From a virus: a stretch of 64,000 nt of DNA. The stretch covers positions 1-64,000 of the IMG/VR virus record IMGVR_UViG_3300035157_000753, one strand, 5' to 3'. Shown one piece after another: positions 28,671-59,879 of this stretch. A program made the position numbers and the translations under genes. Each line of letters starts with the position of its first letter. The stretch's first letter is position 1. The notes below the pieces were generated by a model. That model saw only the letters and a program-made list of their open reading frames with translations, was not told where the DNA came from and searched no databases.

Positions 28671-28678
28671 TATTTATA
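28671..28678 (-). promoter_or_regulatory. T4-type late promoter TATAAATA
   Basis: Exact TATAAATA on the minus strand, 20 bases upstream of gp8, overlapping the stop region of the 4,796-residue gene. It lets gp8 and downstream genes be transcribed independently of the very long upstream gene. Confidence 0.8.
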
Positions 28679-34600: not shown

Positions 34601-37600
34601 CACCAACATAGGTATGAGCAGCACTACCAGACATACCAGTATCTAAAGTCTTTATCTCATCTCCAATCTGATCTAATTGGAAGCTAGAAGTATATGATGC
34701 ACGATCATAGTACATTACCAAAGCACTAGAACCTAATTGAGGTGCAGTAGAGAATGTTATAACATCACTAGCAAAAGTATAATTATTTGGATTCTGAACA
34801 ATACCATCAATTATAACTAAGAACTGTGATTTAACAGATGTCTTGTTAATCTTGGTACTAACTGCTGTATTATCAACTCTTGTTGAGAACTGAGTATTAA
34901 CTCCATCAATTCCTACTGTGAATCTATTAATAGCAGCAGTAGATCCAACATTAACAGTAAATGTATCAGTAGTTTCTGCTATAATGTTCAATATCTTTCC
35001 ACCATGACCTATTGGATCTGTTGATCTTGGATATGTGTGGTTAGTTGCATTGTTATCCATTAAACAAGTTAATGTCAATGCATCATCAGCAATAGTGATT
35101 GTATTAGCAGTAGTTAATCCATGTCCAGCACTATGAATTACTAAATTACCATCTGCAGGAGTATATACAACATTTGTTGGGTTAAAGGAACTTCCATTAT
35201 TTGCTTCAATACCATCTGTCTTACAAGAAACAAATGTATGTGTACCTACACTGAGTGAGGATAGTACAACTGTACTACCTCCAAGAGAAGGTTTCAAAGA
35301 TATTGTATTAGCATCAATAACATCAACGTAATATACAGTTCCTGTTGTCAATCCACCAATATCACCTTTAAAGGTAACAGTTTGATTCTCAATCAATCCA
35401 TGATTAGTTAATGTAATTCTATTATTACTTAAATCAACTACACTAGAAGATGCTCCATCAAAGACGATATCTCTAGTTGTAATATCATCAACCTTATATG
35501 AGACACAAGTTAAGATCTTCTGAATATCTAACAACTGTCTACCGAATACTTGAACCTCTGTAGGAACAGCAGCTGTATAATCTGGTTTACCAAGAGCAAA
35601 GTTATTAATAGTTGCCAACTTACCAGTATTCTTAGCAGATGGTTTTGGTGTTACAAATGTAAGACCATTAAAGGTTGAATTAAGACTATTAGTACCAGGA
35701 ACCCACCAATCTGTTGAACTAGTGGTAAGTAAATCAAGAGTAGGTTTACCCCTATAAGATTTCTTAGATGCCTGTGATAGTATCTGTGTACCAACAACTT
35801 TTAACCCTGCAGGGTGAGCAGCAAATTTAAGTGGATTCTTCCAATCTTTAATATTAATAGGTGAAGATATCTCATATGAGAATTCTTGGAACCTATCACT
35901 ATCATATAATCTCTGTTCGTTAATATCTAAGAATCCAGTAGTACGTTCCCACTTAGAAGATGATATACTAATTGGAGAAACTTCAAATACAGCATCTGCT
36001 CTATCAAACGCATGAATCGAACCAAATGATGAAGATTCCTCACCAAATATAGGTTGACCAACTTTAAACTCACCTTCACTAATTTCTACACTAACAACAC
36101 GTCCAGCAGGATCCCAATTCTTAACATATCCAAATGCAGTATATGAAGCTGTAGATGCACCCTGATAAACTCTTTCTCCAACTAAGAATGTTGCAGGTCT
36201 CATATATGCAGTAATAGTATCACCAAGATCAGTAGTATCTAATGTAAAGGTTGTTAATCCATTAGCATCTCCAACTGGAGCAGAAGTGAATGTAATTGTT
36301 GTTGGACTGTTCGCAAGTGCATTTGCTTCAGATGTTGCTAATCTAACTTGATTATCTGCCAATCCATTTGAACCATTAGAAGCAACAACATAATATGTTG
36401 TATTAATTGCCAATGGAGCTGGGAAAGTACCAACTACTTCATTTAAGGTTACTGCAGTACCTGTTGGTATCTTTGTATTGTATGGGAAGTTTAAAGTACT
36501 ATTAGACATCAATGCAACCCAGTTATGAGTTACTCTTGCATTTACAATTGGAGCAGATAAGAATCCTCTACCTCCATTTCTAACCTCTACCGATTGTATA
36601 ACTTCATTCTCAACAATCGCTTCTAATTGATAAAGTGACCCACTTCCACCAGTAAGAACAATTGTTGGTTGTGATACAAAATTAGATCCACCATTAGTAA
36701 CATCAATATAATCAATAACCTGAGTTCTTGTTAATTGAAGATTATAGGTTGTATTTAATTCTGGTTTTAGAGTTCTATCATGACTATAGTTAAATGTAAT
36801 ATTATCTCCACCAATCTTTAATATCTTACCCAAATCGGAAGATTTAAGTAATAAAGAAGCACCCTTTCCTGTTTTCTGTGTAATATTAACTACAGGAGCA
36901 TTCTGATATAATGTTCCACCATCTTCAATATTAATAGCAGAAACACCTTCATTTACAATACTTGAATTGAACTTAGCGTTGATTCCACTACCACCACTAA
37001 CATCTACATTTGGTGCTGATAGATAACCAGATCCAGTATTGGTTACTGTAATAGCATCAATAGATGCATTTAACACACAATTGGTAATCGCTGGATCAAG
37101 ATGTGTAAGTTTATCAACTGTCACAGTAGCATCATGAGTAACATCAGTACCACCCATTGATGCACCAGAAATTGTAATAACGTCACCTAGTGCATATGTA
37201 CTACCACCATCAGTAACGGTAATACTTTCAATAGTTCCTGCACCATTAACAACTACTGTAAACTCAACACCAGTTCCCCCAGTAGGAGCAACACTCTTCT
37301 GAGCAACACCAGTATATGATCCAGTTGTATAATTGGTACTAGACTGTGTAGTAATTGCTACAGTGTTTACTAGTCCATATGTGGGATCATCAAGATCAAT
37401 AGTAGGAGCAGCTCTATAATTAGATCCTGCTGCAATAATATTAACAGATTCTAATTTACCAACATTTGGACCTGAGCTGGGAATAATGGCCTGGACGTTA
37501 GCATGAATTCCACCCACAGTTGTGACCTTACCTTCAGCATCAGAACTATAAACCTTACCTCTAGCATTGTTAGATGTATATGGAGTGTACATGATCCACC

Positions 37601-40600
37601 CTCTAGTTGCTGCACTAAAGTTCCCAGCTCCATCTTTTAGATTATTTCGCAGAGGTTGAATTCTCAATATGGAAGTTGTTGGATCCCAACTAATAACTTT
37701 ACCTCTAGCAGTTTGAGCACCTAGAACTGGTTCTGATATAACAATTTCATCTTTAGCAAACGAACCACTACCTAATACTTCAGTTAGAGTTAAATCTACA
37801 AAATCTGGTAAAGTTACATATGCTACTGGAGCAGATGCAGGATTATAACCAGATCCCATGTTAGCAATAGTAACACCAGATACTGAACCAGAAATAGTAG
37901 CAACTGCAGTTGCACCAGATCCAGATCTAGTAGATCCAGTTAATTTTGGAAGAGATGAGTAGTTTCTTCCCGAATCACCGATAGAAATTTTTCCAATACC
38001 GCCTGTTGGGTATATTGAAGTTGTAACATAAGTAATACCACTTGTATATCCACTTTCAGGTTCTTTTCCACAAATATAAGTGAAATTGAGATCAGTTACA
38101 TCTTTTACAATATTTGTGCCCGATAAAGGCTCATTCATAACTGTAAGGTAACTTCCAGCAATAGTTCCTTGAATATCGAAGTAATAGAAGATTCCAGGAA
38201 GATCTGTCATCAATATAGTGATAGAAGTCTGTTGACCCGTTTGTGCATTCTTTGTTTCCGCAGATATGTTCTTATAAGTGAAAATATCGGTATTTGCGGG
38301 ATCTAGAGTAAATGCAAGTGTTTTTCCAACATTACTTGCATCTGAAGTGTCAAATGTGTAAGAATGCCCGTCAATCAACTCTAACTTGGGTTCTTGGACA
38401 TAAACATCAGCAGAAGTGACTGTAGCGGCAGCTGTAGACCCATGATTGCGTTTTACAGTGAATCTACGAAGAGTTTCCGTTCTAATTACTTCATAATCAG
38501 TTTTATCGTATGCAGATGGAGAAACTCCTGAAATATTAACAGTATCGCCTATTGCAACTTGATGAGCAAGATTTGTATGACATACTGCCTCTCTTAGAGT
38601 CTCAGTTAATGTAATACTGAAACTAGACCCTCCACCATTACCTAAGTTCTGATCACTAGCAGAAATAGTATCTCCAACATTATATGCAGTACCAAAGTCT
38701 GTAATTGTAACTGTGGTGATTGCACCGCCAGAAACGACTATAGTTGCCTTTCCGTTTCTACCACTATTATTAGTAGTTAATGGAACGTCATTATAAGTTC
38801 CATTTGTATATCCAGATCCACCAGTAATACCTGACCATCCACCTTGGACTAAATTACCGTCTGTACGAGTTCTTACGTAAGTCCAAGTCAATGTACCATC
38901 AGATGCTGTCCCTGATAAATGAGTAGGAGCATTTCCTGCACCAGAATCAGATGTACCAGCTGCAGCAGCCTTATAAACTCTATTTGAAACATAAACAAGA
39001 TCATTTTTAGCATATGCAGTACTATTAGTCCAAGGACCAATTAACTTCATGCTTACTAGGTCAAAATACTCAAAATGGTACTTATTATTGATAATTTTAG
39101 TATTAAGAGATCTTGTAGCTGAATTATCAGAAATAGAAACAGTAAGTTGATCATCACCAACCAAATAATGCTTATCTGAAGTTGTTAAAGTCGCAGTAAC
39201 AACATCATCGTCATCTACAGCATAATTTAAGGAAGAAACAACTGCACCACTAACTGCAGAGACAGATGCACTAACACCTTCTCCTCCAGAGGTACTATTA
39301 TCAAATAATAGTCGATCATTAACCTTATAACCAGTACCACCACCTTCTATAAGGTATTCATTGATATTAGAAGAAGAATATTGGTTAGTAGAGGTAACTG
39401 TTAGTGATTCTGCTATTCCACCACGAATTACTGGATAATAACTGAAATATCCAATACCATCTTCAACATATTGAAGAATTTCTCCAGTTTCAAGTGTAAT
39501 AAGAGTTGTAGTGTCTTCTAGTGCTAAAACGAAGTCAACTTTGTTATCAAGTTGCTTTCTCTTAGTGGTTATGTTGTCAGTTCCGATATATGGTGCTTTA
39601 TACCTAATTGCGTCTTCTGTAAAGTTTTTCTGAAGACCATTTCCGTCCCAGTTGACTTCATCCGCTTCTGAGTAGAAATTTGGTCCTACAAAATATGGAA
39701 ATTTCGGATTTCCACTGATTCCATCAATTGTACAGAAATATGCATAAACTCCATCTGGAAATTCTGGAGTTACGCAGAATCTACCATTATATTGGTCTAA
39801 ACCGCCTAATCCCTCTACATATTCATAATCTTCGATAAAGGTTCCCATAGGGTCGCTTAGACCGCTTAGAAGAGCATCCCTAGTTGTCTTCAATCGGTAG
39901 CTTGTACCAGGTTGCTTATATGAATTGTATGGATTCTGATTTTCAGGATCTTCATACCCATAAGGTCCATATATGGGGTGTCCATCGTATGCCCAACCTA
40001 TAATCGGTGAATGTTTAGTTGGAGTTAGCTCTTTCCATGGTGGATTATTAGGATCCGTGTCAGGTTCAATATTATCAGCTAAGTAATACCTAAGATTCTT
40101 AGGATTATACAAATATCCATACTCTCCACCATATATTCCAATATTCTCACCTACCATCACTGCTCCACTAGCCTGATCAGTCACTTTCCTTGCATTGAAG
40201 TTTACTTGACCAACTTCTGTAGCAGTTGCTGATTCGTTATAGGTTAATTCTGTTAATTTGGTTGTAAATGAAGCACCAGTTCCAGGATATACAATACTAA
40301 TGCTTGTATTACCTATAGTGTATCCAATTCCTTTATTTGTTACGACAATACCAGTAACAATGTTCTGTGATAAGTCTACTTGAGCAAATGCAGTAGCACC
40401 AACTCCATCTCCAGTGATAACAACGTCTGGAGCACCAAAATACCCACTACCACCAAAAGTTACGATAGCACTCTCTATCTTTCCATTCAAGATTGATGGA
40501 TAAGCAACAGCACCACTACCAGAGATCAATTTAATAATCGGTTCGTATGTATACTGCGATCCAGCATTAGTAATAGTAATATCCTTAAGAGGTCCACGTA

Positions 40601-43064
40601 CAACAGCAGTTGCAGTTGCTCCTGCACCGTTACCACCAGTAATTGTAATAGTTGGTAATCCAGCAGCCTGTGTATATCCACTTCCAGATCCAGTAACTGT
40701 GATTCCAGTAACCTTACCATCAGTTATCTGTGCAACAGCAGTTGCCTGTGTATTATTAGATGCACCACCTCCACTAATAGAGACACTTGGTTCACTTGTA
40801 TATCCACCACCTCCATTCGTAACGTTAATAGCAATAACTCTACCATCTACCTCTGAAGTTGCAGCTGCAGCAAGACCTAAGTAGGTCCATTCAACAGTTC
40901 CTAGAGTTACATCACCAGATGTATGTGTAGGGTACAATGTATTACTACTTTGACCTACATTCTTAGATTGATATCTTTTTCCATTCCATTTAACAATTAT
41001 TCCACTAGCATAGGTAGTTGCAAGCTTATAATCTGGTTCAAACTCAACTGTAGGTGGGTTTTGAATATCATATCCATCTCCACCTGAATTTTTAATAACT
41101 GACTTCAATCCACCATATTTTTTAGTAGCACTTCCCTTATATGAGAACAAAGGAACACCATTAGTACCAATTCCAACCTGACCTATAGGAGTTGGAGTTT
41201 TTGTACTCTTAGTAGATGTTGTTAGTGGTATTCTTTTAAGATATCTCTGGTTTCCTGGATCTACATCACCTGCTGCAAAAGGTCCAATCTTATGTGATGG
41301 TATACCTGTACTAGCTATAATACAATCTGTTGATGACTTGTAGGTATTACTGGTATCTGCAATAAACTTAGAAATTGTAGCATTGTAAGAGTAGTCAGAT
41401 GATCCATATGCAAATTCTCTAGCAATAAAGAATTCCTTACCTGCTAATATCGGAGCAGCAGGAGTTGATGAAAGAATAAACTCAAAAACAAAATCATCAA
41501 CAATACCAATTACATCATGTTGGTTATTGTAGATATCTTCCTCAGCATTAAGGATTCTAACCTTATCATCTCTTCTTAATTGATGCTTCTCTTTTGTTGT
41601 AACAGTTACTCTAACAGAACCATTAGGATTGGGTGTTCCTAGGGTTGCTGTAACCCCTCTAAGTGCCCTTCTGACGTTATATAAGAAAGAACTCCATATT
41701 GGGTCAAGACTATCGAAACCAGGTGCTAGAGGGGTCGTAACCTTACTCTGTGGAAGGTAATACTTACCACCCTTTGCTATATTAACACCTCTGGTTCCAC
41801 CATAGACCTTTAATTGAATTTCAGACCCATCTACGTTGCTTTTACCGTAAATCTTGTATGCAGCAAAAACTTCTTGCCCTGCATCGTGTGCTACATTGAG
41901 TGTATTCTCTCTAGCACGATTACAACCTAAAAATTGGTTAACTGTCTTATCTTGATATGTAATAATTTCATCTTCAATCCTAAATCGACCATTTTTCTCT
42001 GGCCAACCTAATGTAGAATCAACAGTAATGATATTATCACTTAAATCACCAGTTAAGTCCGCAGCAAGAATTGATTTGTAAGGAGTTACAAAAGTTCCAA
42101 GTGAATTATTGGTATCTACATCAATTTCAAAGATTGAACCAGTTTGAGTGAATACTTCAACAACACCTTTAACGTATATACGTGCTGTATCAACATTTGG
42201 ATCAGTTGTATCTGCTTCTTGATATAAAACTTCCCCAACAAGCTCAGTTGGGTCTCCTGTTATAGCAACACAACGAATTACTTCCCTAGAAGTGTAATAT
42301 GCGTCAGATGGTTTGAAAATTCTATCTCTTGGATAGGAAACTTCCGATTCTACACCAAAAATTGTTCTTAAAACGAATTGGAACGATCTTGTAGACCCTT
42401 TAGAAGCATAAAAGTCCTTAATTCGCTTAATTACGGTACTTTCAGTGATTCCAGTGTAAAAATTCTTCGGATAAGTGGATAAAAGCAGTTCTTTGAACTG
42501 TCCCAACATGAAAAGTGGGAAAAGGTTGTTCAAATTAACAACTTTTGACCCAATAACGTGTTCTGCAGCAATTGTTGATGAAAAAACGAATTCTCCTGCA
42601 TCTCCAAGTGCTTTTACAGCATCAAAACCTCTTTCACAACTGTTAAAGAGGGTTGCACCCTTACTTTGGTAGTAAATTATCTCATCATCTATTAAAAGTA
42701 GTCCTTCATCGGGAAAATCACGAGTTGAAGTAACGTCAATAGTAGAAGAAGAGGTAGTTACCGTTGAAATTGTCGTTGTTTCAGTAACTAAGTTCCCATA
42801 ATTGTCAAGATTGTAATAATCAGCCCAATTATTGATTATATCTAAGCAATATCCCTTTAATTCTTGTGATTTATAGTATGCTCTAACGAATTCTATGAAT
42901 GTAGGAAAGCTCTGCTGTACAAAACTGGCAAATTGACCAGTAATGCTGTCAGATAACTGCGATCTAGATTCAGGACTTACTTCCGATGGAACTGGTGGTG
43001 CCGATACCGTTGTGGTCGGAGTGGTCCACGACCCTACTTTCCAGGATGAATTCGATTGAGCCAT
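28674..43064 (-). CDS. Giant baseplate/fibre protein in gp7 position with YHYH domain (4,796 aa)
   Basis: Residues about 40-265 (FPTFIEFVRAYYKS, KELLLSTYPKNFY, IKRIKDFYASKGSTRSFQF, FKPSD) match a T4-like structural-protein domain found next to gp6. Residues about 1,017-1,130 (GWAYDGHPIYGPYGYEDP, NGRFCVTPEFPDGVYAYF, FPYFVGPNFY) form a YHYH domain. GSGYT..P repeats fill much of 750-2,200. About thirteen YPR-type modules lie between 2,610 and 4,065, and an alpha-helical GGNDSTYDAAKYY module near 4,150. It starts 8 bases after gp6. The T4 equivalent gp7 is 1,032 residues, so this is a gp7-position protein fused with surface modules; homology to gp7 is not proven. Confidence 0.85.
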   Translation of the reverse strand: MAQSNSSWKVGSWTTPTTTVSAPPVPSEVSPESRSQLSDSITGQFASFVQQSFPTFIEFVRAYYKSQELKGYCLDIINNWADYYNLDNYGNLVTETTTISTVTTSSSTIDVTSTRDFPDEGLLLIDDEIIYYQSKGATLFNSCERGFDAVKALGDAGEFVFSSTIAAEHVIGSKVVNLNNLFPLFMLGQFKELLLSTYPKNFYTGITESTVIKRIKDFYASKGSTRSFQFVLRTIFGVESEVSYPRDRIFKPSDAYYTSREVIRCVAITGDPTELVGEVLYQEADTTDPNVDTARIYVKGVVEVFTQTGSIFEIDVDTNNSLGTFVTPYKSILAADLTGDLSDNIITVDSTLGWPEKNGRFRIEDEIITYQDKTVNQFLGCNRARENTLNVAHDAGQEVFAAYKIYGKSNVDGSEIQLKVYGGTRGVNIAKGGKYYLPQSKVTTPLAPGFDSLDPIWSSFLYNVRRALRGVTATLGTPNPNGSVRVTVTTKEKHQLRRDDKVRILNAEEDIYNNQHDVIGIVDDFVFEFILSSTPAAPILAGKEFFIAREFAYGSSDYSYNATISKFIADTSNTYKSSTDCIIASTGIPSHKIGPFAAGDVDPGNQRYLKRIPLTTSTKSTKTPTPIGQVGIGTNGVPLFSYKGSATKKYGGLKSVIKNSGGDGYDIQNPPTVEFEPDYKLATTYASGIIVKWNGKRYQSKNVGQSSNTLYPTHTSGDVTLGTVEWTYLGLAAAATSEVDGRVIAINVTNGGGGYTSEPSVSISGGGASNNTQATAVAQITDGKVTGITVTGSGSGYTQAAGLPTITITGGNGAGATATAVVRGPLKDITITNAGSQYTYEPIIKLISGSGAVAYPSILNGKIESAIVTFGGSGYFGAPDVVITGDGVGATAFAQVDLSQNIVTGIVVTNKGIGYTIGNTSISIVYPGTGASFTTKLTELTYNESATATEVGQVNFNARKVTDQASGAVMVGENIGIYGGEYGYLYNPKNLRYYLADNIEPDTDPNNPPWKELTPTKHSPIIGWAYDGHPIYGPYGYEDPENQNPYNSYKQPGTSYRLKTTRDALLSGLSDPMGTFIEDYEYVEGLGGLDQYNGRFCVTPEFPDGVYAYFCTIDGISGNPKFPYFVGPNFYSEADEVNWDGNGLQKNFTEDAIRYKAPYIGTDNITTKRKQLDNKVDFVLALEDTTTLITLETGEILQYVEDGIGYFSYYPVIRGGIAESLTVTSTNQYSSSNINEYLIEGGGTGYKVNDRLLFDNSTSGGEGVSASVSAVSGAVVSSLNYAVDDDDVVTATLTTSDKHYLVGDDQLTVSISDNSATRSLNTKIINNKYHFEYFDLVSMKLIGPWTNSTAYAKNDLVYVSNRVYKAAAAGTSDSGAGNAPTHLSGTASDGTLTWTYVRTRTDGNLVQGGWSGITGGSGYTNGTYNDVPLTTNNSGRNGKATIVVSGGAITTVTITDFGTAYNVGDTISASDQNLGNGGGSSFSITLTETLREAVCHTNLAHQVAIGDTVNISGVSPSAYDKTDYEVIRTETLRRFTVKRNHGSTAAATVTSADVYVQEPKLELIDGHSYTFDTSDASNVGKTLAFTLDPANTDIFTYKNISAETKNAQTGQQTSITILMTDLPGIFYYFDIQGTIAGSYLTVMNEPLSGTNIVKDVTDLNFTYICGKEPESGYTSGITYVTTSIYPTGGIGKISIGDSGRNYSSLPKLTGSTRSGSGATAVATISGSVSGVTIANMGSGYNPASAPVAYVTLPDFVDLTLTEVLGSGSFAKDEIVISEPVLGAQTARGKVISWDPTTSILRIQPLRNNLKDGAGNFSAATRGWIMYTPYTSNNARGKVYSSDAEGKVTTVGGIHANVQAIIPSSGPNVGKLESVNIIAAGSNYRAAPTIDLDDPTYGLVNTVAITTQSSTNYTTGSYTGVAQKSVAPTGGTGVEFTVVVNGAGTIESITVTDGGSTYALGDVITISGASMGGTDVTHDATVTVDKLTHLDPAITNCVLNASIDAITVTNTGSGYLSAPNVDVSGGSGINAKFNSSIVNEGVSAINIEDGGTLYQNAPVVNITQKTGKGASLLLKSSDLGKILKIGGDNITFNYSHDRTLKPELNTTYNLQLTRTQVIDYIDVTNGGSNFVSQPTIVLTGGSGSLYQLEAIVENEVIQSVEVRNGGRGFLSAPIVNARVTHNWVALMSNSTLNFPYNTKIPTGTAVTLNEVVGTFPAPLAINTTYYVVASNGSNGLADNQVRLATSEANALANSPTTITFTSAPVGDANGLTTFTLDTTDLGDTITAYMRPATFLVGERVYQGASTASYTAFGYVKNWDPAGRVVSVEISEGEFKVGQPIFGEESSSFGSIHAFDRADAVFEVSPISISSSKWERTTGFLDINEQRLYDSDRFQEFSYEISSPINIKDWKNPLKFAAHPAGLKVVGTQILSQASKKSYRGKPTLDLLTTSSTDWWVPGTNSLNSTFNGLTFVTPKPSAKNTGKLATINNFALGKPDYTAAVPTEVQVFGRQLLDIQKILTCVSYKVDDITTRDIVFDGASSSVVDLSNNRITLTNHGLIENQTVTFKGDIGGLTTGTVYYVDVIDANTISLKPSLGGSTVVLSSLSVGTHTFVSCKTDGIEANNGSSFNPTNVVYTPADGNLVIHSAGHGLTTANTITIADDALTLTCLMDNNATNHTYPRSTDPIGHGGKILNIIAETTDTFTVNVGSTAAINRFTVGIDGVNTQFSTRVDNTAVSTKINKTSVKSQFLVIIDGIVQNPNNYTFASDVITFSTAPQLGSSALVMYYDRASYTSSFQLDQIGDEIKTLDTGMSGSAAHTYVGGTVTNAVTVVSDSNTQKNVTDAAYTPATGLLELTIGSHSYTTSDTIQIADSSLKFTCAADNHASTHAYPRPSDEAFGATLAITAETATTITVQVNTNLSPVRDTPDGLTAGTGYADGTYTNIPLFNKIGTGVGATGDIVVVDGGVKNVVLNNPGNGYTENDILGISPIGKPLTNSYVPSAAAYTPSTGVLQLTVGEHTLTAPTTTTVTDADYNPTTGIMTVTVVAHGLKAGDQVKFADGSLKLSCAFGGASGAAAQKDYPRSTDYASDRWLEVSNITTNTFDVTVLDTIPSTNTDAHSFVSAVASGLSIATSTVKFSNNSLNFTCTHGGGVHSYPRSSDPISGKNVPVDAITSTTFTVNALNGTAATNTTTHTFDSLATYQYQPSYCDYDATTGIMEVWATAHGLSNGDFVQFATDGLTFKCSRDGYATNHTYPRSTDPAAGNWLNVFEVSTNNFKVNIGQAVEKAMTPTSATFNASTGALSMSVDNHGLTAATSHTATDAAFNTSTGIVTITVTGHGFEAGDKVKLKDGAITMSCTHGGGGQSAYPRSTDPISGKWITIRAVTTDTFDIQCLDDTPCTNTTTHAFVSGLADGILYATSFVSIDDDALTFTCSMDDDFSRHSYPAAGDRSSKAVLGVESVTSDTFTVDVGASPEVAFTPTAATYTATTGDLQLTIGSHSLEVGNSINIDVNSLMFRCHMENDGTLASGNLTSLGATLHNYPRVTDPAAKTNQYITATTGTTITVNVGPSPTVNYQPTGAALNLANGDLDLTVGGHKFRGYDTFTPTDIAYDPATGIATLTIKGHTINKGDFVQIAKESLTFTCTAGAGNHSYPRVTDPAYRSWLQVIDVTNDTILLNFYVATGATGQAHTFVSASDNCVQRKGDTIKLADGGIVMSCDNGGVSNQSYPRTDTISYTPTDADYDPATGIMTITHGGGAGAFVNGDQVKFDDSAIVFTCTQGGGTHAYPRATDPASGRWLTIWDADNTTFKVQVLDSIPSTNVTVHTFDSAVSNGMKKKKDWAYDRPIPIKSVGYTSHAVSNATYAPGTGVLTATVAGHGFSNGDYVKVNQGALKFTCNKDSNATVKSYPTLEDPNYDEWMLVSNVTTDTFDINVGVAGPNGQHAHTFVPEGKLTPTVAAYDPLTGVFTITINNHGFVAGDEIKIDDDTFKFTCNEDFHTSFHNYPRSTDPISGQWVKIYNVTTNTFDIQVLNSVPSTNTTAHTFISAVSNSITRSAVKKQTGVITINTNNRDSAITHQYAHSFVSAGATAVIAGGNYTHTFIQATANAIRSGGNHTHTFVNATPGSVKTGFAHQFVSANANSVTRSLVQSGGYEYDRLADAGRLIRENLDFIATTAYGRMMATNSTFVVPSFVKCIRDTKLIAQAIANNIEFGGNDSTYDAAKYYVGTVHLQGEEDQTVLVFNHARDICREVMRNISVTTNSYTEGAQYRDLTITNDSGNATYDTNDCTDVASAITTLTAIVTQAVGTTSGGAGNLTGITRTSSSNPEFQVEVGTVAFDGTDKIFSAKVAGSNYALPASDNFLIFLNSILQIKGSTEAYTYTGSTISFTEAPTSGMDFYGFYFGKLQLLDTIAPFFDNARQTFVMTLNSEPFSLQSDNTSVEPANNVMIFINGVFQEPGVAYQLNGSIIEFFEAPRAGSTCSLYIYVGSAEDIFISNTFNSLDANDRIMVKSEGEDRLLATVSSATSIDTYEYTGLRPTVANFECTINNGKVNTVSILDGGSNYEVPPILYFQGGSGTGASAETVIQSGSGRVTSVVNLNGGAGYLTPPTVFAVHPLHVERKSRQRLISNTLALANTYLSTAISAVDTTLTCKNIYFDVSQNIGFPDEGEVLIPYWDASKGSWTCERILYGSKNTTANTLTVATGGRGYGGTTASAISIQTGTYSSSGTVCTVTTSAAHNLITGMSIYLDHTSGDGFDGAYKVTVTAVDTFTVEYPFSRTASGNVSLLPEVRLRSL
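30880..35250 (-). repeat. YPR(S/T)TDP protein-coding repeat modules, array 2
   Basis: About thirteen units inside the 4,796-residue gene. Each runs: Y.P.TG.MT.TV..HGL..GD, a strand ending in (L/T)F.C, an H(S/N)YPR(S/T)TDP turn, a TT.TF.V.V strand, and in longer units PSTNT..HTFVSA. Shorter variants lack the PSTNT part and end in VNVG. At least one unit is degenerate (SYPAAGD), which fits ongoing duplication and decay. Confidence 0.8.
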
Positions 43065-52471: not shown

Positions 52472-53068
52472 TCACAAAATACCTGGTCCTTCGCGGAATA
52501 CATCAAATATGAGGGAAATTCTATCGAATCTACCCATATTTTCTACCTTATGCATCGCGGAACTCTGGAAAATCATCAATTTACCCTCCGCCTGGGGTCT
52601 AGACTCATTCCGTACAGATAGCGTACAGATCTCAGCAGTAAATGGCAACTGACACCTCAGTCTCTGAGTATGACTATTAGGATCAGGGTCATAATGCCAT
52701 CCTAGAGATGCATCAGGTGCTAGTTTAACCATACCTACGTACATAGTTTCACCTAACCATGTCATTGTCTTTGCTAGTTTAGGTAATACTTCTACGTTCC
52801 TTGGGTATGGTGTACGATTAAAGAATAATGGTGCTATACTCCACTTACTATCTTCTGTTGCTAGTGGTGCAGTAAAGTATTCATCATATTGTATTTCATG
52901 TCCTTGATTACTTTCTTCTATGGTCTTCTTCTGGTATGATGTAAAGTCTCTCCACTCTAGTCCATAATGATTGCTATCCCACTCCTTCTTTAGAGTAGGA
53001 TAGACTGTATGTAATCCCTTTAGTCGTCCGTTGACTTCTTCAGGTTCATAGAAATAATCACCTTTCAT
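52472..53068 (-). CDS. Aspartyl/asparaginyl beta-hydroxylase-like 2OG/Fe(II) oxygenase, 198 aa
   Basis: Iron-binding HxD is at H125-D127 (GWHYDPDP), with R136 and R138 following, and the distal His at H173 (SSAMHKVENMG) and R183 (DRISLIFDV), which is the Asp_Arg_Hydrox arrangement HxD...R..C.LPF...G....F....H.V.N...R. The fold hydroxylates Asp/Asn side chains or other small substrates with 2-oxoglutarate. No signal peptide, so cytoplasmic. Overlaps the 53-residue gene by 11 bases. One of three such enzymes in the window; the substrate is unknown. Confidence 0.85.
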   Translation of the reverse strand: MKGDYFYEPEEVNGRLKGLHTVYPTLKKEWDSNHYGLEWRDFTSYQKKTIEESNQGHEIQYDEYFTAPLATEDSKWSIAPLFFNRTPYPRNVEVLPKLAKTMTWLGETMYVGMVKLAPDASLGWHYDPDPNSHTQRLRCQLPFTAEICTLSVRNESRPQAEGKLMIFQSSAMHKVENMGRFDRISLIFDVFREGPGIL

Positions 53069-54169: not shown

Positions 54170-54197
54170 ATTATAGCAGATCGAGACTGCCATGCAA
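54170..54197 (-). promoter_or_regulatory. Promoter TTGCAT-N16-TATAAT for the tRNA leader
   Basis: TTGCAT at 54192-54197, 16-base spacer, TATAAT at 54170-54175, overlapping the stop of the nuclease gene. A CTGCAC lies exactly 30 bases upstream of TATAAT. Confidence 0.6.
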
Positions 54198-54884
54198 TAC
54201 CCTATGTGCAGGTTTGTTGGCTGGCACACCATCCATTAGTCTGGTGATGATCGGTGCTAGTCTAGTCTTGAAGAAGTCAAAATACTCATCAATGGTAAAG
54301 GGCATATTATCTTCTCCTACCCATCTAAAGAGATCAGAGACACCATACACACCCACTCCAAGAGCAACATACTCTCTTGATATTTCTACTGGTATCTCTC
54401 TCTTGACTGGTATGAAATATCCCCTTTGTACCTCAGTATTATACTTCTCTCCTAATACTTCAGCGATTTGATGTATCTTCTCATTTGATGCACGTATCTT
54501 CTCTGTATCAAAATTCACATTGCACTTACTCTCTAGGTACATATGTGATGCATACATGAGTTCAGGTATAGTAAAGAAATGATCTATCTGTCTTGTTCTA
54601 CCATTGACATCAACACGATCACTATCTTCAATTAAATTACGTGACACACTATTATCAAGATCACTAATGACTGTGTTCCAAAACTTCTCTAGTCTACCAC
54701 CTACTGTAATGGATACAGACTGTGTAGATGGACGTGATCCTAGACCACATGCTTCTAGAATGAATGATTCTGTTGCCTTTGGTTTGATACTCTCAATGAG
54801 TGGAAGCAATGTTGCTTCCAAGTATTCAGTGGATGATAACATTGGAAAAATTGTAAGTAGGAATAGAGCGTATTCGTATAACAT
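54171..54884 (-). CDS. Candidate PD-(D/E)XK restriction-type endonuclease, 237 aa
   Basis: The start at 54884 has GAGG six bases upstream (AGAGGTTATAATG); a longer frame from 54911 lacks this. The core GRTRQID101HFF followed by E118-S-K120 and CNVNFDTEK has the D-x(16)-ExK layout of type II restriction endonucleases, where D and E hold Mg2+ and K activates water. An Asn/Asp-Thr-Glu-Lys string after ExK is a pattern I associate with some of them. It lies two genes from a Dam-like methylase. Target and activity are not shown. Confidence 0.65.
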   Translation of the reverse strand: MLYEYALFLLTIFPMLSSTEYLEATLLPLIESIKPKATESFILEACGLGSRPSTQSVSITVGGRLEKFWNTVISDLDNSVSRNLIEDSDRVDVNGRTRQIDHFFTIPELMYASHMYLESKCNVNFDTEKIRASNEKIHQIAEVLGEKYNTEVQRGYFIPVKREIPVEISREYVALGVGVYGVSDLFRWVGEDNMPFTIDEYFDFFKTRLAPIITRLMDGVPANKPAHRVLHGSLDLL

Positions 54885-55008
54885 TATAACCTCTTTCTCT
54901 CTTGATTTCAACTATACTGAAATCCTCGTCTTTGTCGTAGTCCACAATATTGATAGTCTCTTCAGGATCAAACTGTTCGAGATGATGAATTAACTGTCGT
55001 ACTAGCAT
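54826..55008 (-). CDS. Small hypothetical protein, 60 aa
   Basis: Reads MLVRQLIHHLEQFDPEETIN, IVDYDKDEDFSIVEIKRERG, then YNVIRIRSIPTYN. The N-terminus LIHHLEQFDPEETINIVDYD is like a family of small phage proteins. It overlaps the nuclease start by 59 bases; the tail may be less constrained. Coupled by overlap to the gene at 55002. Confidence 0.6.
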   Translation of the reverse strand: MLVRQLIHHLEQFDPEETINIVDYDKDEDFSIVEIKRERGYNVIRIRSIPTYNFSNVIIH

Positions 55009-55220
55009 CTTGACTGCTCATACTCTGTAACAACATCAGTAACTAACTGCTTATGAATGTAGAATAGTTTACCTAGGTCAACATCCTCTAGTTCAGTCCA
55101 CTCAGATACATAATCAGTTTGATCTAGATCAGGTGTACCATCAGTAAATGTAGGGCATGAGCAGAACTCATCCTCATCATCTAACCAGAAGTGTCTACCG
55201 AAATGCAATGAAGCGATCAT
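55002..55220 (-). CDS. Acidic hypothetical protein, 72 aa
   Basis: Reads MIASLHFGRHFWLDDEDEFC, SCPTFTDGTPDLDQTDYVSE, WTELEDVDLGKLFYIHKQLV. Strongly acidic. Acid-rich small phage proteins sometimes mimic DNA, which is only a thought here. It has a TATAAT 21 bases upstream. Not recognised. Confidence 0.65.
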   Translation of the reverse strand: MIASLHFGRHFWLDDEDEFCSCPTFTDGTPDLDQTDYVSEWTELEDVDLGKLFYIHKQLVTDVVTEYEQSRC

Positions 55221-55241
55221 GTGAACTGTGTAACTATGATT

Positions 55242-55285
55242 ATTATAGTCTCTTTATGCAGCATCTTGCAACATAGGCAGTGCCA
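55242..55285 (-). promoter_or_regulatory. TATAAT with TGGCAC 32 bases upstream
   Basis: TATAAT at 55242-55247 and TGGCAC at 55280-55285 in the last codons of the methylase. The spacing is two bases longer than at the exact sites, and the TGGCAC is coding, so chance is possible. Confidence 0.5.
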
Positions 55286-56096
55286 CTCTATGAAGTGTCA
55301 TATCATTCTCGTAATTGGTCACGTACATATGCTTTACTTGAGCATTGGCATGGTTCTTACCCTTGCCCCATCGTTGAGCATACTGATGAGGTTTAATCAT
55401 AATATGATAGTCCTTTAGGGCATTCATATAATAATCATCCTCAGTATGTACAAATAACCATTTGGCACTGGTATTATTCATACACTCTACTAATCGTTCA
55501 TGTAAATCCTCACCACCATCACCAGTGGTGTATCCTAAACGATTGAGATAGGGTGGATCAATGAATATCCAGTCATTCTCAAGTGCATCTTCAAATATAC
55601 TCTCAAAAGATCCATTGTTTAATTTGCATCGCTTGAGCATTTTCATGTGCTCCCAATTAAGATTGCATGAAAACTTCTTGTAATGACCAAATGGTACATT
55701 GAATTTACCATTGCTGTTGTATCTCTCCATACCAGAGAAACACAACTGCCTTACAGTAATGTAACTGACTGCCCATTTATATGGGTCACGTTCACCATCA
55801 TTAATGTAATCTCTTGATTCATAGTACTCTTTCTCTAATGCATCATGATCTAATGTTTTTAGATAGCATACGTGAGAGAATACTTCCTGGAACATGATAG
55901 GATCTTTAACCTGAGCATACATGTTCATCAAGGTAGCATTGATATCATTCAATACTGATGTTTTATTCAATGCAAATGAGACCGCAGCACCACCACAAAA
56001 GGGTTCTAATACCCTTTCAAACTGATCTGGTAGCAATTGCTTGATCAGTGGTAGTTCTTTGGTCTTACCGCCTTGATACTTGACAATAGGTTTCAT
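55254..56096 (-). CDS. dam: Dam-like DNA adenine methyltransferase (D12 class), 280 aa
   Basis: D12-class N6-adenine methylase. The N-terminal KYQGGK at residues 6-11 and EPFCGG at 31-36 form the SAM-binding FxGG region; DPPY at 180-183 is the catalytic motif. Length is like T4/E. coli Dam (about 260-280). Such enzymes methylate GATC or related sites and can protect phage DNA. It ends 33 bases before the TATAAT of the 72-residue gene and is coupled at its start to the 76-residue gene. Confidence 0.92.
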   Translation of the reverse strand: MKPIVKYQGGKTKELPLIKQLLPDQFERVLEPFCGGAAVSFALNKTSVLNDINATLMNMYAQVKDPIMFQEVFSHVCYLKTLDHDALEKEYYESRDYINDGERDPYKWAVSYITVRQLCFSGMERYNSNGKFNVPFGHYKKFSCNLNWEHMKMLKRCKLNNGSFESIFEDALENDWIFIDPPYLNRLGYTTGDGGEDLHERLVECMNNTSAKWLFVHTEDDYYMNALKDYHIMIKPHQYAQRWGKGKNHANAQVKHMYVTNYENDMTLHRVALPMLQDAA

Positions 56097-56323
56097 TTCT
56101 TACGCAGTCTCTCCACTTCATTACGTGCAGACTGCTCATTGCGACAATACTTTATTATAGCACCATTGTGGACTAAAGCCAACTTGGTCTTACTACCCAT
56201 CACTGGTATAGCATAATAACCATCTTTAGTTGCAAATCCATGTTCACAATCTTTATAGAACCTAGCAATAGATTCTAATTCCTTCTGTTCAGGTGTTTTG
56301 GTCGATTTTCTTGTTGTGCTCAT
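56093..56323 (-). CDS. Small basic hypothetical protein, 76 aa
   Basis: The start at MSTTRKSTKTPEQKELESIA is chosen; upstream extensions overlap the 83-residue gene. It contains FYKDCEHGFATKDGYYAIPV and C-terminal helix NEQSARNEVERLRKK. Not recognised; coupled to dam by four bases. Confidence 0.65.
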   Translation of the reverse strand: MSTTRKSTKTPEQKELESIARFYKDCEHGFATKDGYYAIPVMGSKTKLALVHNGAIIKYCRNEQSARNEVERLRKK

Positions 56324-56540
56324 CCCAAGGGTGTACATAATCACGGTTTTCAATTGTGTGGATGGATAGATGAGCATCTTTGCCCCATCTATTCATTTGT
56401 CGGATCCCACCGAACCCTAATTCTAAATCTTTATCTGTCCAACCAAGTTCTTTAACTAACTCTTCTCGTATGTAAATGTGTAGTTCTCCTTCAACATACT
56501 TGTAGTCAAAATACTTGTCAATGTGTGGGTCAATTGCCAT
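56289..56540 (-). CDS. Hypothetical protein, 83 aa
   Basis: Reads MAIDPHIDKYFDYKYVEGEL, HIYIREELVKELGWTDKDLE, FGGIRQMNRWGKDAHLSIHT. Strand-rich then helical. A late promoter TATAAATA lies 22 bases upstream, so it may be expressed late. Not recognised. Confidence 0.7.
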   Translation of the reverse strand: MAIDPHIDKYFDYKYVEGELHIYIREELVKELGWTDKDLELGFGGIRQMNRWGKDAHLSIHTIENRDYVHPWDEHNKKIDQNT

Positions 56541-56561: not shown

Positions 56562-56569
56562 TATTTATA
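56562..56569 (-). promoter_or_regulatory. T4-type late promoter TATAAATA
   Basis: Exact TATAAATA on the minus strand, 22 bases upstream of the 83-residue gene and overlapping the stop of the oxygenase gene. It would give late expression of this gene, the 76-residue gene and dam. Confidence 0.75.
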
Positions 56570-57080
56570 CCAAACCTTGTTGGTAAAAATCCTCTTCTTG
56601 TGTTGATTCTGGAACTGTCACTAGATTACCAGACACCACAATTCTATCATGCAAGCATGTATGTGGGGTTACGTAATGTATGCGTTCTCCATCAAACACA
56701 TGTAAGTTACCAACTTTAGGTTTAACAACTTCAGGTGGTAACCATGGGTGTTTTATGTCAGGGAAGATAAGAGGAGAGCATTTAGGACAGGCATCCAAAT
56801 ACCACACAAAAGACCAAACAGAACCGTTATGGTTATGAGCCTCTGCGTAGTCACCTTGTCTGTAGATGCTGATCCAGAGATCCTCGACCTCCAACGTTGG
56901 ATAGATGACATTGAGTTGACCTAAGAGTTCATCGAAAATATAACAATCAGACACGTCCCAGTCAGTCAAATCTGCTTTGACTGGCGCGTCCTCCCTTCGA
57001 TATAAAGAGAGTTCCTTAATAATCTCTTTATAATTTATAGGTGGACGTACATAGAACTTGTCAATCGTTAAGTTTTGCAT
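56565..57080 (-). CDS. Putative 2OG-Fe(II) oxygenase, 171 aa
   Basis: The start at MQNLTIDKFYVRPP is chosen because the longer frame lies within the metallopeptidase end. H82-N83-H84 (AEAHNHNGSVWSFVWYLD), then GNLHVFDGERIHYVTPH with H135, and R146 (HDRIVVSGNL) fit PF13759-type 2OG oxygenases with an H-x-H variant of HxD. Its substrate is unknown. It overlaps the metallopeptidase stop by 20 bases. Confidence 0.82.
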   Translation of the reverse strand: MQNLTIDKFYVRPPINYKEIIKELSLYRREDAPVKADLTDWDVSDCYIFDELLGQLNVIYPTLEVEDLWISIYRQGDYAEAHNHNGSVWSFVWYLDACPKCSPLIFPDIKHPWLPPEVVKPKVGNLHVFDGERIHYVTPHTCLHDRIVVSGNLVTVPESTQEEDFYQQGLV

Positions 57081-57522
57081 CCTGATACTCTTTAAAGAAG
57101 ACTGATTCCATCTTGTATGCATCAATCTCCCATGGTTCATCCATGTATTCTGTTTCAGGGGGTACTGGTACTCCCTTCCACTTATTTACTACTCTACTAT
57201 GACGTGTAGAGAAACGTTGTACATGTGTACCACGTAATCTTTGTTCTACATGACGTAGTTCATGGAATAGAGTAGTTAAATACTGCTCTTTGTTGTCTAA
57301 TCGGTTCTCCAACTCGATCTCAAAGTAACGTGGACGTGATAACTCATCAATTGATAAGCATGTTCCATCATTACCCTGATGCCACAACCGTTTGTCTACA
57401 ATATGGACAAACGTGTTGAAGCGATTGAGTTTACGATGCTTGAAGAACCACTCGATTGCAGCGCGAGCGATCCGCTTGCGATTACGATACCCACCAAACG
57501 TGACATAACAAGACATGACCAA
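57061..57522 (-). CDS. Zincin-type metallopeptidase-like protein, 153 aa
   Basis: The zinc-binding HELRH motif is at residues 87-91 (TTLFHELRHVEQ) and a third ligand is probably E132 in DEPWEIDAY. The N-terminus has RNRKRIARAAIEWFFKHRKL. It resembles SprT/ImmA-type short metalloproteases. Cytoplasmic. Function in the phage is not known. Overlaps the oxygenase gene. Confidence 0.8.
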   Translation of the reverse strand: MVMSCYVTFGGYRNRKRIARAAIEWFFKHRKLNRFNTFVHIVDKRLWHQGNDGTCLSIDELSRPRYFEIELENRLDNKEQYLTTLFHELRHVEQRLRGTHVQRFSTRHSRVVNKWKGVPVPPETEYMDEPWEIDAYKMESVFFKEYQDAKLND

Positions 57523-57781: not shown

Positions 57782-58038
57782 TCTTGTATCTCATCTAAAC
57801 GTAGACCACGATAACCTGATGCTGGTGCATCAAGTTCGTCCAAAGCTCGACCTAGTTCTTTGGTAAGGTGCTTTTCTAACTGTATATCATCAACATTATG
57901 TCTTACTGCGATCTGGTTTCCTATGGTTGGGTCTGTAGACCACATAAGATCAATAAGATACTTGATCTGTTGTGTGTCCAGTTCAACCATCGTTACTACG
58001 CTGTCCATTTCTGGTTGCTCCGTGATGATTACTTCCAT
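57778..58038 (-). CDS. Hypothetical protein, 86 aa
   Basis: Reads MEVIITEQPEMDSVVTMVEL, DTQQIKYLIDLMWSTDPTIG, HLTKELGRALDELDAPASGY. Helical; a small phage protein of unknown role. Overlaps the methyltransferase by ten bases. Confidence 0.65.
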   Translation of the reverse strand: MEVIITEQPEMDSVVTMVELDTQQIKYLIDLMWSTDPTIGNQIAVRHNVDDIQLEKHLTKELGRALDELDAPASGYRGLRLDEIQE

Positions 58039-58988
58039 AGTATATCAGGTAATTGAGTTGGAATGCTATCAATACGGTCAGTTTGCAAACTGGCATAGTC
58101 CTTATTGAGTTCACACCCAATATAGTGTCTATTATGTTTCTTGGCAACCATGGCAGTGGTTCCTGATCCCATAAAAGGATCCAGAATCACATCACCCTCG
58201 TTGCTCCCTGCCAAGATACATGGTTCAATGAGGTCTGGGGGGAACACTGCGAAATGTGCTCCTTTGTATGGTTTATTCGTAACTGACCATACACTACGCT
58301 TATTTTTCTTCTCGTAAGACTTGGTGAGACCACTATGTGGCTGTAACCCTGTCCCTTCATTATGATACTTCCCTTCAGTTCTATTTCTCGTTCCCCAGTC
58401 TTGCTTGACTGGTTCTTTGATTGCTTCATTGTCATATTTGTAATTCTTGCTCTTGCTTAGTAGAAAAATGTATTCATGCGACTTAGTACATCTATCACGA
58501 ACACTCTCAGGCATGGGGTTAGGCTTGTGCCAGATTATATCCTGTCTCAACCACCACCCATCAGCACGTAGTGCAAATGCTAACATCCATGGTATACCGA
58601 TTAGATCCTTACTCTTAAGTCCTTCTAGTCTATTTCCTCTTACTGGTGTATTCTGAGGTAGATCTTGTCTGGTCTTAGCAACTGTCTGTTTAGGATAGTT
58701 ACCATCACTTCTGTAATTATAGTATGTGTCACCTATGTTAACCCACAACGTACCATCCTCTGCAAGTACATCACGCACTAATGAGAATACCTTAACCATT
58801 TCAGCAATGTATTCTTCTGGTGATTGCTCCATACCTATCTGCTCCTCCTTACCACCATAGTCCCTTAGACCATAGTAAGGTGGTGATGTTACACACATCT
58901 GTGGTTTTTCCGCAATACCAGTTGTAATCTGTGCTTTCAGTGTGCCTAGTGTCTTACGACAGTCACCAAATAATACTGTGTCTCTCAT
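58029..58988 (-). CDS. Beta-class DNA methyltransferase (N4-cytosine or N6-adenine), 319 aa
   Basis: TSPPYYGLRDYG at residues 34-45 is the catalytic SPPY motif and DPFMGSGTT at 270-278 is the SAM-binding motif I. The order IV first, I last places it in the beta class, which includes N4-cytosine and N6-adenine enzymes. The middle has IGIPWMLAFALRADGWWLRQ, the target-recognition region. It probably modifies phage DNA in a sequence-dependent way. It is next to the two small membrane genes. Confidence 0.9.
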   Translation of the reverse strand: MRDTVLFGDCRKTLGTLKAQITTGIAEKPQMCVTSPPYYGLRDYGGKEEQIGMEQSPEEYIAEMVKVFSLVRDVLAEDGTLWVNIGDTYYNYRSDGNYPKQTVAKTRQDLPQNTPVRGNRLEGLKSKDLIGIPWMLAFALRADGWWLRQDIIWHKPNPMPESVRDRCTKSHEYIFLLSKSKNYKYDNEAIKEPVKQDWGTRNRTEGKYHNEGTGLQPHSGLTKSYEKKNKRSVWSVTNKPYKGAHFAVFPPDLIEPCILAGSNEGDVILDPFMGSGTTAMVAKKHNRHYIGCELNKDYASLQTDRIDSIPTQLPDILWK

Positions 58989-59258: not shown

Positions 59259-59879
59259 TCATGCAAAGTTTAAAGCTATGGTAATACGCTCCCCATCAAA
59301 TGTTGACGGTGGAACTGAGTGTTGCAAGTTAGATCTGAAGATAACAACAGCTTTCTCTTGCGGTGGTGCAATCAATACATCCTGATTTAATGGTGTTGGT
59401 TGCACTTTATTCTTAGGTGGTAGCATACTTCCCATATCAGGACGCTTAAAGTATGTACCAGCAGCACCTTTAGGTACTTTCACATAATATATTGCGGAGA
59501 ATATGTTATATGGGTGCATGTGGAACTCTTGATACTTACCACTCTGATATACATTATACCATGATTCTGTGCATTCGTAAACCTCATCCGAACCATAGTG
59601 TCTAGCGAAGTCATTTACACACTCAGTTACCTTATTAATGAGCGTAGTGAATTCCAAATATTCCGTAAGGTCAGTAAGGTGAAAGCAATTGTCTGGTGAT
59701 GATGCACCACTCAACCAACTCTCAGTGTTACCTTTCTTGAATACTTTACGCAATTCATGTACTTTACTAGATATTACCGCATTCTCTTTATCAGTCAATA
59801 GATTAGTTGCCGCATATAATCCCACTGGGAACACATGCGTCACATTATTATTAACTTGGTGTACGTTTATATTACTCAT
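59259..59879 (-). CDS. 2OG-Fe(II) oxygenase (PF13759-like), 206 aa
   Basis: Typical pattern: ESWYNVYQSGKYQEFHMHPY (W107, H120, H122), AIYYVKVPKG, FRSNLQHSVPP (H187) and R198 near the end (GERITIALNFA). This family, frequent in cyanophages, uses 2-oxoglutarate and Fe(II). H120-x-H122 takes the place of HxD, as in related phage proteins. Substrate unknown. It overlaps its upstream neighbour by 8 bases. Confidence 0.87.
   Translation of the reverse strand: MSNINVHQVNNNVTHVFPVGLYAATNLLTDKENAVISSKVHELRKVFKKGNTESWLSGASSPDNCFHLTDLTEYLEFTTLINKVTECVNDFARHYGSDEVYECTESWYNVYQSGKYQEFHMHPYNIFSAIYYVKVPKGAAGTYFKRPDMGSMLPPKNKVQPTPLNQDVLIAPPQEKAVVIFRSNLQHSVPPSTFDGERITIALNFA

Follow-up and report, generated by a model that had tools for sequence, protein, structure and literature searches.

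A predicted PD-(D/E)XK nuclease next to a Dam-family methylase: a candidate type II restriction-modification pair in T4-like cyanophages

RESULTS

Gene layout and source of the locus

Reading along the minus strand of the 64,000-nt stretch of viral DNA analyzed here (the window), we find a Dam-family methyltransferase gene, a gene of 72 codons, a gene of 60 codons, and a gene for a candidate restriction-type nuclease (Table 1). The initial annotation had placed two small genes between the nuclease and Dam, and both are indeed present, the 72-aa product being acidic. The pair does not require them: in the cyanophages S-CAM8 and S-WAM2, no gene intervenes and nuclease and Dam directly adjoin. 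A co-directional run of genes that reaches down to the nuclease begins with an 83-aa gene. Three frames around the pair (52472-53068, 56565-57140, and 59259-59879) resemble 2OG-Fe(II) oxygenases by eye, and positions 28674-43064 hold a 4796-aa tail or structural frame with many C..D..H.YPR..DP-type repeats, likewise recognized by eye.

The second methyltransferase that had been noted about 2 kb away is also there, 1.9 kb beyond Dam and with a match to N6_N4_Mtase. We considered it as a partner of the nuclease and dropped it, as it adjoins the pair almost only in the clade of the window itself; its proposed place in the module is not borne out. The protein has an SPPY motif and is possibly of the N4-cytosine type.

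The source virus belongs, judging by sequence, to the T4-like cyanophages of the Prochlorococcus/Synechococcus type. It encodes a gp6-like protein with 74% identity to those of the Prochlorococcus myoviruses P-HM1, P-HM2, and MED4-213, none of which was among the nuclease-carrying records in a search of 50,697 isolated phages. The IMG/VR record containing the window, a fragment of 87.2 kb, encodes the nuclease and the restriction-modification (R-M)-linked Dam once each. As a side observation, CCGG is nearly missing from the window (2 sites in 64 kb, observed/expected 0.07), and neither S-CAM8 nor those parts of S-WAM2 and P-HM2 that were sampled have any site.

A motif resembling T4 late promoters, TATAAATA, lies 22-29 nt before the 83-aa gene, and similar ones precede gp25 and gp8. 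All four TATAAATA copies in the window (10443, 28671, 45370, and 56562) share the coding (minus) strand and precede the start of an ORF by ∼20-30 nt. The motif is missing close upstream in nearly all relatives and its count in the window is not above chance, for which reasons we dropped late-promoter timing of the pair.

Table 1. Coordinates of the genes and motif discussed, in the window and in loci (L numbers) from other records
Feature	Position	Strand	Remarks
Candidate restriction endonuclease, PD-(D/E)XK	54171-54884	-	237 aa from M1 or 222 aa from M16 (54842); PHROG 26553
60-aa gene, overlaps nuclease start	54826-55008	-	PHROG 6161, E 6e-6
72-aa acidic gene	55002-55220	-	PHROG 13427 (function unknown)
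Dam-family N6-adenine methyltransferase, proposed protecting partner	55254-56096	-	280 aa; PF02086, TIGR00571
83-aa gene	56289-56540	-	First of co-directional run
TATAAATA, T4-like late-promoter-like motif	56562-56569	-	Upstream of 83-aa gene
Second methyltransferase	58029-58988		N6_N4_Mtase, E 9e-59
Distant nuclease subfamily	L098 4411-4974; L107 1093-1653; L118 4402-4995; L119 3612-4193; L130 2757-3338		
P0006-type nuclease-like gene before related Dam	L080 2387-3004 (STML-198); L245 2001-2633 (KP179)		

A predicted PD-(D/E)XK nuclease of a new sequence family

The frame singled out in the initial annotation carries D101-x(16)-E118-S-K120 as described. While the frame itself holds, its length of 237 residues probably does not: translation probably starts at M16, giving 222 residues, because two close relatives (loci L003 and L004) lack an ATG at the position of M1 and the majority of distant homologues have their start near M16. 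The longer form has in its favor that the better Shine-Dalgarno-like sequence stands before M1, and the choice between the two starts leaves the D101/E118/K120 triad untouched. Homologues at 37-74% identity occur in viral contigs, and a comparison of close relatives gave a dN of ∼0.2 versus a dS of ∼1 (dN/dS ∼0.2); strong purifying selection acts on both the nuclease and Dam. Since it has viral homologues, a dN well below dS, and an invariant triad, the frame is more than a chance ORF.

In a confident AlphaFold2 model built on a 42-row alignment (pLDDT 84, pTM 0.80), the core elements follow the order H54-75, E90-93, E96-99, E102-105, E114-119, H127-147, and E152-157, and the alpha-beta-beta-beta-alpha-beta core of the PD-(D/E)XK superfamily is present. 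Foldseek comparison of the model with the PDB returned Card1 (E 8e-5) and Cdn1, both nucleases, as best matches. VIA-align ranked the type II enzyme EcoO109I first (Z 7.6 across 186 residues), followed by EndoMS, PspGI, Can2, McrBC, EcoRII-C, Bse634I, and others, with Hjc and AddAB also listed. The structural matches are mostly restriction enzymes and other PD-(D/E)XK nucleases. With EcoO109I, PspGI, EcoRII-C, and Bse634I, the model has in common the predicted fold and the placement of D...E-x-K on core strands; at Z 5.6-7.6 and 7-14% identity, that is, with Z below 8 throughout and no close restriction endonuclease (REase), this likeness denotes kinship at the superfamily level only. Combining the core with these matches, we predict the gene product to be a PD-(D/E)XK nuclease, as had been proposed by eye; of the two tests set for that call, the fold supports it.

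Profile searches, which had been suggested as a check alongside the fold, did not add to this call. Searched at E 1, the window protein had no match in Pfam or NCBIfam, and the family as a whole exceeded the cut-off of no nuclease model there or in PADLOC; among 42 members, the best match to an REase-type profile was RE_TdeIII, at E 0.016 and in one member. The sole family match is PHROG 26553, of unknown function. Sequence searches against solved structures gave nothing meaningful for the nuclease (E 0.5), and a 7-row profile reached at best E 0.07, to arenavirus-type polymerases. No homologue was found in plasmids, in GTDB genome contigs searched with peptide patterns, or in 386 cyanobacterial genomes, the last by a profile search that is weak for want of a positive control. 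Two chlorovirus-type BFVD matches, M1HMA1 and M1HSV2, were kept out of the argument. Thus, the putative nuclease represents a candidate restriction-enzyme family that is new at the sequence level, PHROG 26553 being its only model.

Conservation of the active-site triad

All 42/42 homologues have D101, E118, and K120, which we propose to be catalytic, unchanged; E66, N70, Q99, H102, D126, E128, and K129 are equally invariant, with E66 sitting in the long helix that precedes the core strands. Most of these homologues were gathered by peptide patterns containing E118 and K120, which partly biases the count, and we re-examined the triad in homologues reached only via the neighboring Dam, with the motif unused. 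These read KQID..YYEDK, RQVD..YCEAK, RQID..YLECK, and RQVD..YLESK. In them, D, E, and K are kept, and variation falls on the position separating the last two, on the C following K, and on the H following D. The nucleases of S-CAM8 and S-WAM2, found by tblastn, likewise keep all three. Conservation of the triad, which had been named as a test of the nuclease call, is therefore seen also in a set collected independently of the motif.

A distant subfamily, also reached via Dam, keeps the three residues in the motif HQVD..REMK or HQID..REIK. In a profile comparison with the main family it scored a probability of 98%, with the acidic residues and the lysine in register; its kinship rests on this comparison, since its structure prediction (A4), at a pLDDT of 54 from only five sequences, was uninformative.

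The neighboring methylase most likely reads GATC

The Dam protein matches Pfam PF02086 (E 1.6e-41) and scores 166.3 bits against TIGR00571, well over the cut-off of 114.85, which places it in the Dam family. It has the motifs DPPY (180-183) and GG as well as an FNVPFG loop; DPPY and GG are invariant in six relatives, indicating that the catalytic motifs are intact. By sequence, the closest solved structure is DpnM (2dpm, E 2e-24), the GATC enzyme of the Streptococcus DpnII system. In addition, the phage protein and Escherichia coli Dam have in common R-Y-N and the stretch FNVPFG-x-YKK, which belong to the DNA-reading part of Dam. On both grounds, the recognition site is most likely GATC. The resemblance to DpnII does not extend to the nuclease, which lacks sequence similarity above cut-off to any REase family. 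S-CAM8 encodes a second, distant Dam, SXCG_00155, with just 19% identity and no FNVPFG stretch; the R-M-linked Dam is thus a gene separate from the common cyanophage Dam.

Nuclease and Dam are coupled

Dam was present in the fetched flank of 54/67 viral-contig nuclease loci, and two of the 13 loci without it (L012 and L051) end at a contig edge, leaving 54/65 testable; these counts refer to the presence of Dam, its intact reading frame having been checked in part of the loci. In most linked loci, the gap between the genes is <100 bp. Conversely, the nuclease profile was found at 53/80 Dam loci, and several of the others end early on the nuclease side. The nuclease- and Dam-derived contig sets share members, and related contigs do not count as independent. 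Counted from either gene, then, the nuclease has a companion methyltransferase close by, as a type II R-M enzyme does.

The order of the two genes varies, with Dam preceding the nuclease in the window's clade and the nuclease preceding Dam in S-CAM8, S-WAM2, and most others. Two records with no Dam beside the nuclease carry this Dam elsewhere in the contig, and some contigs, which are fragments, have the nuclease and no Dam that we could find. A 6.4-kb contig (L038) has two tandem, diverged nuclease copies (1352-1912 and 2198-2749), the second reading ESKCC versus ESKCN, and no Dam. Among the isolated phages, the nuclease family occurs in six records, from S-CAM8 and S-WAM2, and the closest Dams (50-52% identity) occur in exactly the same six of 50,697.

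Different nucleases accompany the same Dam

The distant subfamily (HQ[IV]D..RE[ILM]K) lies directly before the same Dam in loci L098, L107, L118, L119, and L130. In L103, a 199-aa protein with HKVDILI..INSKGK (4405-5004) ends 4 nt into Dam; it is possibly another PD-(D/E)XK-like partner, and a two-sequence alignment gave 23% identity to protein P0006 of phage STML-198. An HNH endonuclease (4497-4973) directly before the same Dam replaces the PD-(D/E)XK protein in L126. L128 has the same Dam as L126 and no nuclease profile match, L096 has the same Dam with no nuclease identified, and a helicase-adjacent clade (L127, L138, and L141) apparently has Dam alone.

The next-closest Dams (41-43% identity) belong to six records of isolated enterobacterial T4-like phages (STML-198, KP179, KP182, and AShe-2020a). 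In exactly those six, Dam overlaps or adjoins a small gene just before it with a K-V-D-I..V-D-V-K pattern, P0006. The encoded protein gave Pfam Hjc at E 0.005, below the cut-off, and PADLOC Cas4_II at E 9e-4, and its VDIV..VDVK pattern was recognized by eye; it looks nuclease-like, the case being weaker than for the window nuclease, to which it is not detectably homologous by sequence. A BFVD search with the window model retrieved an STML-198 protein of the length of P0006 (E 0.017), which we assume to be P0006. KP179 annotates its related methylase as MjaIII type.

The cleavage-plus-protection pair that the initial annotation had proposed draws support from the genetic linkage, from the co-occurrence, and from the way nucleases are swapped next to one Dam. 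As far as sequence and models can tell, the two genes behave like a type II R-M pair and are a candidate for one, formal membership hinging on two enzymatic criteria, namely, cleavage at a specific sequence and its block by methylation at a shared site.

DISCUSSION

We hold, with moderate confidence, that nuclease and Dam form a small type II R-M pair of a lytic T4-like cyanophage that probably attacks unmethylated host DNA. On phage DNA, Dam would methylate the adenine of its recognition site, which is most likely GATC, and the PD-(D/E)XK enzyme would cut the same site where it is unmethylated. The host chromosome would be unprotected, as nearly all searched Cyanobiaceae lack Dam, and might be selectively broken during infection. 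Such breakage would halt host functions and supply nucleotides to phage replication, the exclusion of unmethylated rival DNA being a by-product. In this scheme, we infer nuclease activity, GATC specificity, the block by methylation, host DNA as the target, and the timing.

What we see of the hosts is compatible with this proposal. Synechococcus WH7803, listed as the host of S-CAM8, lacks Dam-family genes, and the same search did give a match in its control, Synechococcus elongatus; across the Cyanobiaceae, Dam exceeded the cut-off in 3/201. A host without Dam may still have another GATC methylase. In 200 kb sampled from WH7803, GATC occurs at 9.3 per kb, which extrapolates to ∼22,000 sites. 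If the site is GATC, an unmethylated chromosome would be the obvious target. The phage genomes range from no avoidance of GATC (observed/expected 0.99 in the window) to mild avoidance (0.80 in S-CAM8); we regard avoidance as uninformative about specificity, because a methylated phage need not avoid GATC.

Linkage and the Dam evidence would also fit a true R-M pair whose nuclease mainly destroys the DNA of superinfecting phages without matching methylation. Since the core Dam SXCG_00155 is so divergent, other T4-like cyanophages need not be GATC-protected, and patchy distribution and nuclease exchange fit phage-phage conflict. However, an unmethylated target of far greater size, the host chromosome, is present in every infection, and in chloroviruses, where an exclusion role was put to the test, the REases enter with the virion, are credited with degrading host chromatin, and reportedly do not account for mutual exclusion (PMC7019647). 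In cyanomyoviruses, denA, ndd, and denB are missing, and, as stated in 2010, host DNA must be degraded there either inefficiently or by a route yet to be described (PMC2984593). By analogy only, the literature on both virus groups supports attack on host DNA over exclusion, and we consider exclusion as the main role unlikely, if the most serious competitor.

We find it improbable that the protein, as a PD-(D/E)XK enzyme of the Hjc, EndoMS, or Cas4 kind, instead serves phage replication, recombination, or DNA repair and that Dam is a mere neighbor. EndoMS, Hjc, and AddAB are indeed among its fold matches, and a UvsW-like helicase gene adjoins some pairs; yet a housekeeping nuclease would not be expected to co-occur specifically with one Dam subfamily in isolated phages, to adjoin it in either gene order, or to be swapped beside the same Dam, and nearly all cyanophages lack the gene. 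Least probable is a selfish, homing-like cassette that cuts cassette-less relatives in mixed infections and is kept in the population by Dam as immunity gene: its location is hypervariable and its presence patchy, L038 has a tandem duplicate, nucleases are exchanged at one slot, and an HNH nuclease stands beside Dam in L126 and perhaps L128, all of which would suit it, but the nuclease comes always as a whole-gene pair with the methylase, has an REase-like fold rather than that of homing-nuclease families, and is, like Dam, under strong purifying selection.

The closest precedent for an R-M pair directed at host DNA is offered by the chloroviruses, where PBCV-1 encodes CviAI and CviAII (PMC7019647). 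Here, too, a lytic double-stranded DNA virus has an REase next to a methyltransferase, with the host chromosome as presumed target; in contrast, these are viruses of eukaryotic algae, their systems are biochemically proven, and the REases are packaged in virions. A complete type II system also exists in phage NrS-3 (R./M.Nph3I; PMC10734518). Unlike the cyanophage pair, which belongs to a lytic T4-like group and would add a new REase family, NrS-3 is temperate, and its REase, of demonstrated activity, resembles BglII and has been proposed to protect the lysogen.

Few phages carry a complete R-M system: one survey of 831 genomes counted nine, compared to 143 solitary methylases (PMC4176335). Cyanophage Dams of this subfamily would pass for solitary methylases, as their partner is annotated as a "hypothetical protein." Among isolated cyanophages, the pair is confined to two species and so does not represent a general route of host DNA degradation. 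We tentatively propose, at slightly less than an even chance, that some lytic T4-like cyanophages use an R-M cassette, with a fixed GATC-type Dam and an exchangeable nuclease, in place of the denA, denB, and ndd of T4, such that missing Dam methylation would be the "not mine" signal for taking the host chromosome apart. The pair is a testable candidate for host DNA degradation in at least some cyanomyoviruses, a process that bears on the recycling of nucleotides from the ocean's most abundant photosynthetic cells.
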